From positions 1 to 33,902 of the forward strand of contig MNDR01000052.1 in assembly GCA_001915025.1 (NCBI GenBank): DNA of 33,902 bases, in the 5' to 3' direction. Shown here one piece after another: positions 2,246 through 7,715 of this stretch (position 1 is its first letter; each line of letters starts with the position of its first letter). The notes under the pieces were generated by a model, which searched no databases, had not been told where the DNA came from, and was given only the letters and a program-made list of their open reading frames with translations. The position numbers and the translations under genes are program-made. This stretch comes from Gemmatimonadetes bacterium 13_2_20CM_2_65_7. Lineage in GTDB: Bacteria; Gemmatimonadota; Gemmatimonadetes; Gemmatimonadales; GWC2-71-9.

Positions 2246-3430
2246 TCAACGCGCGACGGCCAACCCGGCGCCCAGACGGCACGCCTCCACCGCTTCGGGC
2301 GTTTGGGCACGCGTGCACTGCTCCTCTTTCTCCGGTGCCGCCGCGAGCAATGTGGCGATCTCCTCGCCCAGTGCGCGGTAGCACGTCGGCGCACCCGGCT
2401 CGCGCAGGACGATGCCGCAGAATGTGAAGGCGGCGTTCGTCGTTGCGGTCCAGTCAACGAGCGCCTTGACGGCCCCGAAGTAACACGAAGGGCGGTAGGC
2501 ATCCCGCGCTTGCGCGCAAAGATCGGCCGTTTTCTGAGGATCGCGTGCCGTATACGAGGTGATGTCGCGGCCCAGACTCTGGAAGCAGACAGGGCGCTGG
2601 GCTGCGGGTGCCCGCTCACAGGACTTCGCGGCAGCGGCGATGTCACCGTGATTCTCGTACAACATCACGGACGTCTGCATCTGATAACAGGCGTGCAGGT
2701 AGCGCTCCGCCACAATCGAGCAGGGGTAGAGCGGGTCCGCCGGGTCGATCGCTTTGAACGAGGACATCGCCATGTGATGATGGCCGTGCGCGGCCAGCTC
2801 CGTCGCGGGGTGATGCGGGGACGTCACGTTGATCACGTTTTCCATGAACGCGCCGCCATAACACGACTCGCGGTCCCAGCCATCCGAGAGGAGATCACAA
2901 TCGGTCAGCGCCTGCGGCAGATCGTGGCCGCGGAACATCGTGAGCCCGTGACCCATCCCGTGCACGCACTGAAACAACACCCAGCGGCTCGCGCTCGCGC
3001 TCCGGAACGGCTGGCACAGCGCCTCGACTTCAGGCTGCGTCACTTGCTCGCGCGACTCGAAATAGGCTTGAATGACGCCGTGGCGGCAGCCGGAGGAGAA
3101 GCCGTCGCCGCAGGCCGAGAACGTGGCGGCGATGTCGGGCGACGTGCTGTATGCCTCGATGCCGAGACCGTGCGCGTATTCGTGCGCGCGCTCGGCGACG
3201 TCGGGATCGGCCGCGGCGATGGCATCGAGCGTCGCCACCGCATCCGCGACCCCCTGATGAGTCAGATGGTCCGACAGCAGCTGCGAATAGCAGATGCGCT
3301 GCCGATCGCTGGACCCGTAACGACAGGTGGAGCCGACTGCGCGCGCTTGGGCGCGAGAGAACTGGTTCGCGGCCACGCCGACAACGACCAGCGCGGCGAC
3401 GACGATCATGGCTTTCACGGATTGCGACAT
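2246..3430 (-). CDS. Exported protein of unknown function with repeated Cys pairs
   Basis: I do not recognise a named family. The 394-residue protein starts with a hydrophobic signal or anchor segment (about residues 7-21), so the rest should lie in the periplasm. It has 18 cysteines, at 36/47, 107/115, 139/155, 178/190, 237/248, 271/282, 305/316, 338/350 and 372/384. Seven of the nine pairs are C-x10-11-C, six of them followed by Tyr or Phe. The last five pairs recur every 33-34 residues, which suggests disulfide-pinned helical-hairpin repeats. The central part is His/Gly-rich (HEYAHGLG at 83, CRHGVIQAYF at 115, CVHGMGHGL at 155, HGHHHM at 215) and may bind a metal. It is transcribed towards deoC and divergently from the phosphatase at 3484. 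Nothing in the context fixes its role. Confidence 0.85.
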   Translation of the reverse strand: MSQSVKAMIVVAALVVVGVAANQFSRAQARAVGSTCRYGSSDRQRICYSQLLSDHLTHQGVADAVATLDAIAAADPDVAERAHEYAHGLGIEAYSTSPDIAATFSACGDGFSSGCRHGVIQAYFESREQVTQPEVEALCQPFRSASASRWVLFQCVHGMGHGLTMFRGHDLPQALTDCDLLSDGWDRESCYGGAFMENVINVTSPHHPATELAAHGHHHMAMSSFKAIDPADPLYPCSIVAERYLHACYQMQTSVMLYENHGDIAAAAKSCERAPAAQRPVCFQSLGRDITSYTARDPQKTADLCAQARDAYRPSCYFGAVKALVDWTATTNAAFTFCGIVLREPGAPTCYRALGEEIATLLAAAPEKEEQCTRAQTPEAVEACRLGAGLAVAR

Positions 3431-6472: not shown

Positions 6473-6817
6473 TTACGGCGCCAGATACTGCTCTTCCCAA
6501 TCGACGGCGAAATCGACCGCACAGCGCCCGCACAGCATCCGGCTGGGCCGGCCGCGTAACGGCACACGGTCACGGCACGACGGACAGACCGCGTAATGCT
6601 CGCCGACTTGCACCGAGCGCGGCACGTTCTGAGGGCGCGCAACAACGGTCCACTTGCGTGGAGGAGTATTCGACATCTGAAGGAAGGCTCGAACCACCGG
6701 GACCGGGGTCCCTTTTACGTCTACCACGGCGCCTAGGCCATCGGCTTTGATCAACCGGTACCAGGCGCCACGACGGAGGTTGCAATTCAAATCGGCTTGA
6801 AGACGCGCCCACACCAT
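6473..6817 (-). CDS. Small zinc-ribbon protein 1 (tandem paralogue)
   Basis: Function unknown. This 114-residue protein has an N-terminal part (ARLQADLNCNLRRGAWYRLI at 4-23, then VVDVKGTPVPVVRAFLQ) and a PPRKWTVVARP linker. The C-terminal zinc ribbon is CPSC (78-81), 14 residues, then CGRC (96-99), ending in FAVDWEE. It aligns along its whole length with the protein at 6911-7258, and its C-terminal half aligns with the product at 7329-7607. The N-terminal segment is about the size of a small β domain, but I cannot name it. No signal peptide is present, so it should be cytoplasmic. The ribbon suggests a nucleic-acid or protein contact; that is inference. Confidence 0.82.
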   Translation of the reverse strand: MVWARLQADLNCNLRRGAWYRLIKADGLGAVVDVKGTPVPVVRAFLQMSNTPPRKWTVVARPQNVPRSVQVGEHYAVCPSCRDRVPLRGRPSRMLCGRCAVDFAVDWEEQYLAP

Positions 6818-6898
6818 CGTGCACTCTCGCTGCGGCCTGAAGGGAGGACAACAGTGCGCTATTCGGGCGGCGACGTCAATGCGATATGACCGTTTCTA

Positions 6899-6916
6899 GA
6901 GTGACCGCAGTCACTC
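6899..6916. repeat. Perfect 7-bp palindrome at the 3' end of zinc-ribbon gene 2
   Basis: GAGTGAC-CGCA-GTCACTC spans the TGA stop (6913-6911) of the second zinc-ribbon gene. No T-run follows on either strand, so it is not a typical intrinsic terminator. It could be an mRNA 3'-end hairpin or a protein-binding palindrome. Confidence 0.5.
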
Positions 6917-7258
6917 GCCTCCGGCACCCCAATCGACTTCGAATTCCTGGCGGCAGCGCTTGCATGTAAGTGCGATGACGCGCTTGGGCAGCGGCACGCG
7001 CGAGCGGCAGCTCGGGCAGACGCCGTAGATCCCCCGAAGATGCGGCGGTGTTTTGCGAGTTGGTGCCGCCCCGTTGACCACGCTCCAGCGCAGCGGCGGG
7101 CGCGGGCGGATCTCGAGCCACGCGCGCAGCACGCCGACGGGCCGGCGGTTTACTTCGATAACAGCTTGTAAATCATTGAGATCGATGACGCGATACCACG
7201 CACCGCGGCGGAGCTTGAGGGGAACGTCCGCCTGAAGACGAGCGAACAGCATGGCCAT
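6911..7258 (-). CDS. Small zinc-ribbon protein 2 (tandem paralogue)
   Basis: Function unknown. This 115-residue paralogue is the best preserved of the three. It has ARLQADVPLKLRRGAWYRVI at 6-25, IEVNRRPVGVLRAWLEI, RPPLRWSVV, and the ribbon CPSC (81-84), 14 residues, CKRC (99-102), FEVDWG. The open frame runs 98 codons further upstream, but that part lies over the third paralogue. The ATG at 7258 has a good AGGAG six bases upstream and gives an N-terminus that aligns with protein 1, so I chose it. It is cytoplasmic by the lack of any signal. It is read in the same direction as selC and the fhs-ridA genes. Confidence 0.85.
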   Translation of the reverse strand: MAMLFARLQADVPLKLRRGAWYRVIDLNDLQAVIEVNRRPVGVLRAWLEIRPRPPLRWSVVNGAAPTRKTPPHLRGIYGVCPSCRSRVPLPKRVIALTCKRCRQEFEVDWGAGGE

Positions 7259-7328
7259 CACGGCTCCTGGTGACGGAGACGAAGATGGGCGCGGGCACAA
7301 TATAGTGATCAGCGCAAGCAGTTGCGGG

Positions 7329-7607
7329 TCAGGAGTGGTCCCAGCCGATGTCGAAATAGCCGTTGCATTTGGGACAGCGCATGCTGGCGGTGCGCTCTTC
7401 CAGCCGAGCGCGTTCCCGGCAGTTGGGACACACACCATAGCACGGCCCCCACGACGCGGGTAGACGAGCCGCACGGGAGGGCCGTGGCACGACGGTCCAG
7501 CGTATCGGACGGGCGGGTAGAATCTCGAGCGACGGACGCGGAACGGCGGCATGCTTCCTCCTCGGGTGAGCTTTGCTACGATTGTGTCCGGGGAGTCGGA
7601 AAGTCAA
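7329..7607 (-). CDS. Zinc-ribbon protein 3, N-terminally truncated paralogue with uncertain start
   Basis: The C-terminal half is clearly homologous to its two neighbours: PSLEILPARPIRWTVVPRP, then CPNC, 14 residues, CPKC, and FDIGWDHS. The N-terminal LRRGAWYR domain of the paralogues is missing. In this frame the only start clear of the upstream selC gene is TTG (7613 or 7607). A strong AGGAGGAAGC followed by ATG at 7552 lies in the right place for a start just before the conserved part. However, that ATG is out of frame with the zinc ribbon. A one-base indel in the CCGCCG run just after it would restore the frame. The gene may be a decayed copy, carry a sequencing error, or start at TTG. 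I give the TTG at 7607 as a nominal start. Confidence 0.55.
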   Translation of the reverse strand: MTFRLPGHNRSKAHPRRKHAAVPRPSLEILPARPIRWTVVPRPSRAARLPASWGPCYGVCPNCRERARLEERTASMRCPKCNGYFDIGWDHS

Positions 7608-7620
7608 CCGCAAGCAGCGG

Positions 7621-7715
7621 TGGCGGGAGCGTGTGGGAATCGAACCCACCGAGCCCTTTTCAGGGCGCATACAGTTTTGAAGACTGATCAGGCCACCAGA
7701 CCCAATCCGCTCCCG
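7621..7715 (-). tRNA. selC: tRNA-Sec (anticodon TCA)
   Basis: The minus strand folds as a bacterial selenocysteine tRNA. It has an 8-bp acceptor stem (CGGGAGCG with CGCTCCCG), a long D-stem around TGGGTC-TGGT-GGCCTG, the anticodon loop CTTCAAA with TCA, and a long variable arm (GCCC-TGAAAA-GGGC). The T-arm is GTGGG-TTCGATT-CCCAC and the CCA is encoded (7623-7621). The 95-nt length including CCA equals that of E. coli selC. The anticodon stem has four clean pairs plus a T-T closing mismatch. It lies only 9 bases after the ridA stop and may be co-transcribed with fhs-ridA. Its presence implies UGA is read as Sec somewhere in this genome. Confidence 0.93.

Follow-up and report, generated by a model that had tools for sequence, protein, structure and literature searches.

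Background

Solenoids of α/α hairpins whose repeats carry disulfides have been described in bacteria and in mitochondria. In the Helicobacter Hcp proteins, disulfides join each repeat, at its end, to the beginning of the following one (PMC3851747), and five disulfides are predicted in COA7, a protein of Sel1 repeats from the intermembrane space of mitochondria, between Cys lying 9 or 11 residues apart (PMC6505684). A different kind of protein, the periplasmic, Met/His-rich CopM, binds Cu(I) (PMC4335983).

The gene examined here lies in a stretch of 33,902 nucleotides (the window) from an uncultured Gemmatimonadota soil bacterium, and its product is built from regularly spaced cysteine pairs. 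The initial annotation knew of no described family with this layout; that statement was too broad, as disulfide-stapled α/α solenoids are known from both Hcp (PMC3851747) and COA7 (PMC6505684). Like HcpB and HcpC, the protein is predicted to be an exported α/α solenoid with disulfide-carrying repeats (PMC3851747), and just as COA7 has stapled Sel1-type repeats in an oxidising compartment (PMC6505684), stapled repeats in such a compartment are predicted here.

There are also clear differences. COA7 is eukaryotic, the Cys-pair family has no Sel1 similarity at the Pfam level, and the C-x-HGxGH and GxFME motifs described below are not known from COA7. The repeat period is 33-34 residues, compared with 36-38 in Sel1-like repeats, and the cysteine spacing is mostly C-x10-11-C, compared with C-x7-C in Hcp proteins, for which neither a His cluster nor a His/Met linker has been described. 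The Sel1 model (PF08238) matched neither the protein at E≤10 nor any of 22 family members at E≤1, its own genome gave no Sel1 match, and neither HcpB nor HcpC ranked among the 50 best Foldseek matches in the PDB, whether the full model or the N-terminal half was used. Because these tests failed (Pfam model, repeat length and Foldseek ranking), we did not file the family under Sel1. With TPR and HEAT/ARM α-solenoids the protein shares the general stacking of helical hairpins, its Foldseek matches being generic, but its pervasive Cys pairs set it apart; the search for TPR models gave no significant match (TPR_14, E=0.41, 11.9 bits, under the 23.5 cut-off).

The gene and its cysteine pattern

The coding sequence occupies positions 2246..3430 on the minus strand, with the ATG at 3430 and the stop codon ending at 2246, and encodes 394 aa. 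Comparison with five close relatives gave a dN/dS of ~0.15, indicating purifying selection and therefore a reading frame that is a conserved gene. Its parts are as follows.

2246..3430, minus strand: Cys-pair repeat protein, predicted to be exported, 394 aa (open reading frame, translation, homologs, dN/dS)
3329..3424, minus strand: N-terminal hydrophobic helix, residues 3-34, candidate signal peptide or membrane anchor (hydrophobicity and lipobox scan; low-confidence AF2 helix)
3254..3325, minus strand: repeat unit C36/C47, residues 36-59 (5/68 relatives have neither Cys)
3143..3205, minus strand: helix 76-96, containing the invariant HxxxH pair His83 and His87 (both His in 68/68; within HEYAH, the Glu varies)
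3056..3133, minus strand: hairpin C107/C115 with invariant His117, residues 100-125 (AF2, conservation; pair replaced in 8/68 by C82 plus a Cys near 112)
2933..3037, minus strand: hairpin C139/C155 with the C-x-HGxGH motif (His157, His161), residues 132-166 (Cys and His161 in 68/68, His157 in 67/68)
2822..2920, minus strand: hairpin C178/C190 with the GxFME motif (Glu197), residues 171-203 (Cys, F195 and M196 in 68/68; E197 in 66/68, Gln in two)
2756..2818, minus strand: His/Met-rich linker of variable length, predicted to be disordered, residues 205-225, joining the two halves (pLDDT <50 at 206-224; composition; motif counts)
2270..2722, minus strand: predicted C-terminal solenoid of five units, 237/248, 271/282, 305/316, 338/350 and 372/384, residues 237-387 (first four pairs in 68/68, last in 59/68; AF2 helices)

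The 18 cysteines (residues 36, 47, 107, 115, 139, 155, 178, 190, 237, 248, 271, 282, 305, 316, 338, 350, 372 and 384) fall into nine pairs, as the initial annotation stated, with within-pair spacings, from the N to the C terminus, of x10, x7, x15, x11, x10, x10, x10, x11 and x11. Other parts of that description also agreed with our recount: seven of the nine pairs have the spacing C-x10-11-C, the five C-terminal pairs start at residues 237, 271, 305, 338 and 372 with a period of 33-34, and the second Cys is followed by Tyr or Phe in six of the seven C-x10-11-C pairs, the exception being the Arg after C384. When 18 Cys were placed at random over residues 32-394, 0/200,000 placements gave seven x10-11 pairs and 0/200,000 gave four successive periods of 33-34. 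Cysteine makes up 4.6% of the protein, compared with 0.69% of the 22 other predicted proteins of the window. Similarity between units past the second Cys is modest (the mean of 21 unit pairs is 2.5 SD above random windows), and homology of the units to one another is therefore likely, although this falls short of proof.

Family and distribution

Homologs were found in 67 of 298 Gemmatimonadota genomes, at one to three matches per genome, a patchy distribution within the phylum. A distant member is present in Gemmatirosa kalamazoonensis KBS708. All 20 loci with homologs in the genome collection are from Gemmatimonadota; one relative outside the phylum, annotated as hypothetical, is carried by Kitasatospora purpeofusca plasmid pKP058 (AP028456.1, L072:4878-5801), and the phages and viral contigs searched yielded none. 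The protein has no sequence relative in Pfam, PHROG or the PDB and no NCBIfam match above cut-off, the family alignment has no Pfam or PDB relative, and eight diverged members likewise have no Pfam match and no NCBIfam match above cut-off. As judged from these comparisons, the protein is a member of an undescribed, putatively exported family.

Three weak database matches were discounted. The NCBIfam pectinesterase inhibitor match (E 1.8e-4, 20.9 bits) falls far short of its 35.95-bit cut-off and is probably due to the spacing of the Cys, while geranyl diphosphate synthase (PDB sequence match, E 0.071) and a phytase (PDB match by profile, E 0.013) gave short matches that were judged to be chance. 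Family copies occasionally occur side by side: L015 and L046 show a tandem pair, and at L067:5447-7518 (genome G180) two copies adjoin, the second consisting of the C-terminal repeats only, at the contig end.

Cysteines are kept or lost as pairs

A set of 41 relatives, reaching down to ~35% identity, keeps every one of the 18 Cys, and six of the nine pairs are never lost in 68 more diverse relatives. The remaining three are retained or lost almost exclusively as units. Pair 36/47 is complete in 63 relatives and wholly absent from five, pair 107/115 is complete in 60 and wholly absent from eight, and neither is ever represented by a single Cys; pair 372/384 is complete in 59 and absent from eight, and the one relative with a single Cys (L057) is an apparent exception that arises from displacement of an adjacent Cys in the alignment. 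Total Cys number 14, 16 or 18 in 67/68 relatives, and 19 in the other. Further, all eight relatives without 107/115 (seven of subfamily 2 and the Kitasatospora copy) have both C82 and a Cys near 112. On the tree, these losses amount to one or two events per pair and about five in all, too few for a formal test, and we therefore treat them as consistent evidence and not as a significance test; where the Kitasatospora, L057 and L059 rows belong on it is uncertain owing to long branches.

One variant (L104:4203-5246, genome G081) is without the stretch corresponding to the three hairpins 107-197; the remaining Cys pairs are retained. Taken together, the loss of whole pairs, the exchange of one pair for another in the 68 relatives and the clean deletion in L104 support disulfides between cysteines that are neighbours in the sequence, the pairing originally proposed. 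As a separate observation, L104 has a Met-rich MAGMAGMEGMDHG linker directly after the site of the missing middle hairpins.

Predicted structure

Run with 22 relatives, AF2 returned an all-helical model (mean pLDDT 83.7, pTM 0.77) whose low confidence is found mainly at the N-terminal helix and residues 206-224; the N-terminal half modelled alone reached a pLDDT of 92.2 and a pTM of 0.88. The expectation of α/α-hairpin repeats is supported, with predicted helix pairs at 100-106/112-125, 132-138/149-166 and 171-178/187-203 in the N-terminal half and at 264-272/276-293, 298-305/310-328, 332-340/347-361 and 365-372/378-387 in the C-terminal part. Seven of the nine pairs have their first Cys modelled at or next to the end of the short helix and their second inside the longer helix that follows, while C36 and C237 stand before their helices. 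From the model and the pattern of conservation, most Cys pairs are very probably disulfides within helical hairpins.

Foldseek comparison with the PDB gave no match at E≤0.001, either for the full model (best E 0.017; TM≤0.26 in the 50 best, generic solenoids) or for the N-terminal half (best E 0.49; TM≤0.37 among the matches listed), and the viral models gave no match.

A conserved histidine cluster and a variable linker

The HG motifs in the central part, CRHG (115-118) and CVHGMGHG (155-162), are present as described in the initial annotation and almost invariant in relatives, and the conservation of the His in and around them favours its suggestion of a metal or cofactor site. His83, His87, His117 and His161 occur in 68/68 sequences, His157 in 67 and Glu197 in 66, the other two having Gln; apart from Asp179 and, less strictly, Asp75, these are the only near-invariant non-Cys candidate ligands. 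The Kitasatospora relative, at 26% identity, keeps all five His, with Gln in place of Glu197 and Ser in place of Asp179. As a point against a metal site, the L104 variant is without four of the six His/Glu residues (His117, His157, His161 and Glu197). Counted from the Cys that opens each B helix, the longer helix of a unit (C82 in subfamily 2, C115, C155 and C190), the offsets of these residues are +1/+5, +2, +2/+6 and +7, and from this we infer that in a regular solenoid they would lie close to one common end of four neighbouring helices. The HEYAH stretch at 83-87 was considered as a zincin (HExxH) motif and rejected, because residue 84 is Glu in only 10/68 sequences and Val in 31.

The five near-invariant His look like a metal site, a prediction for which we put the chances at slightly better than even; copper, as the metal of this putative site, is a tentative assignment in which our confidence is clearly below even. 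The same residues may be read in other ways. One is a metal-dependent enzyme (e.g., an oxidase, oxygenase or hydrolase) with a mono- or dinuclear His5Glu site in the helical N-terminal half, which would suit the run of four long helices that bear, in turn, HxxxH, H, HxxxH and E, as well as the high conservation of Q121 and W150 in the main subfamily; this we find quite unlikely, as no known enzyme is matched by sequence or fold and no pathway neighbours recur. Another is a scaffold, stapled by disulfides, to which proteins or peptides would bind, a role that has been suggested for Hcp and further proteins with Sel1-like repeats; His and Gly would then be structural, at helix starts and in tight packing, and no metal would be bound. 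The predicted architecture class is shared with Hcp (PMC3851747), the Foldseek matches listed for the full model are all generic solenoid scaffolds, and the presence of conserved Gly next to the His hints at constraints from packing. Such a scaffold is nonetheless unlikely in our estimation, although a serious competitor: the five near-invariant His and the Glu are confined to one half of a protein in which most other non-Cys, non-Gly positions vary, and the His/Met-rich linker would have no role.

That linker (residues ~205-230) ranges from 12 to 86 residues in relatives. It contains 13.4% His and 5.6% Met, compared with 3.2% and 2.4% elsewhere, and is enriched in both MxM/MxxM (1.4 per 100 aa vs 0.04 elsewhere) and HxH/HH (4.3 vs 0.22); as a further point against the metal reading, subfamily 2 and some other members have short, His-poor linkers, with a minimum H+M count of 0. 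It is in the linker only that the protein resembles CopM, DUF305 and other Met/His-rich periplasmic copper binders (PMC4335983), as there is no homology, no Cys-pair solenoid on their side and no DUF305 match in Pfam scans of the protein and 22 members.

Export and gene surroundings

A hydrophobic N-terminal stretch is present in 66/68 relatives, followed in 11 of the 66 by a lipobox-like motif; of the two relatives without it, one is cut at a contig end. The export proposed earlier is thus backed by a feature common to nearly all family members, as predicted from their sequences. Elsewhere in the same genome, a VKOR-family gene adjoins a Thioredoxin_4 gene (contig 46, C46:1543-2510; L105/L107), a likely disulfide-forming pair of the host bacterium.

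Within the genus, a gene for a calcineurin-like phosphoesterase lies divergently upstream and one for a DeoC-family aldolase downstream. Across Gemmatimonadota lineages no gene neighbourhood recurs, neighbours being shared only by close relatives, and no conserved neighbour of the Gemmatimonadota copies points to copper, which is a further point for the scaffold discussed above. The Kitasatospora copy adjoins a Caa3_CtaG gene and an M56 peptidase/BlaI-MecI-CopY gene pair, with a CcsB gene nearby, neighbours that, in this one case, hint at cytochrome oxidase or copper handling. In Gemmatimonadota, Caa3_CtaG is near-ubiquitous (234/298 genomes); its co-occurrence there is therefore uninformative, and was ruled out as a functional clue.

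Proximity to the CtaG and ccsB genes in Kitasatospora would also fit a COA7-like heme-binding assembly factor, a disulfide-stapled solenoid whose heme would have two His ligands. COA7 is itself a disulfide-rich Sel1-repeat protein with Cys 9 or 11 residues apart (PMC6505684), and it is cited as heme-binding in a title among the references of PMC12224909. However, the family has no sequence relation to Sel1 and no heme or cytochrome gene adjoins the Gemmatimonadota copies, and we regard a heme factor of this kind as very improbable. The c-type cytochrome heme motif CxxCH is absent from the protein sequence.

Elsewhere in the window, three small overlapping or adjacent ORFs lie on the minus strand at 6473-7670 (6473-6817, 6911-7552 and 7329-7670). 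They share a C-terminal CxxC...CxxC zinc-ribbon-like part, as if tandem duplicates, and two of the three have an RRGAWYR stretch; Pfam matches are absent or weak.

A proposed role and its implications

The reading we prefer, at a level of confidence just short of even, is an exported, disulfide-stapled solenoid that would bind a transition metal, most likely copper, and serve in periplasmic metal binding or delivery. On this proposal, drawn from the sequences and the model, the exported protein would be membrane- or lipid-anchored and folded as an α/α-hairpin solenoid. Each unit would combine a short helix A, with Cys at its end, and a longer helix B that has the partner Cys near its start, so that one disulfide would staple each hairpin, as covariation and AF2 suggest. 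The B helices of successive N-terminal units would bring His83/His87, His117, His157/His161 and Glu197 close to the same end of adjoining helices, where the five His and Glu197 may together make up a single metal site, with copper as the likeliest metal, assisted by the flexible His/Met-rich linker that joins the site to the C-terminal repeats. It is possible, if somewhat doubtful, that the family represents a new metalloprotein fold extending beyond Gemmatimonadota, with a staple on nearly every hairpin and a His5Glu site to which three to four repeats in a row each contribute their B helix, and with a role at the cell surface in the handling of copper or heme.

That Cys pairs are lost or exchanged as wholes offers a simple sequence test for disulfide connectivity. 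As a conserved, probably exported family with no Pfam model, solved relative or significant PDB fold match, the Cys-pair proteins are a clear structural target, and next to Hcp/COA7 they would be a second, apparently separate, case of α/α solenoids stapled by disulfides. Should copper or heme bind at the His site, the family would reveal a class of metal-handling proteins in an abundant, poorly studied soil phylum.
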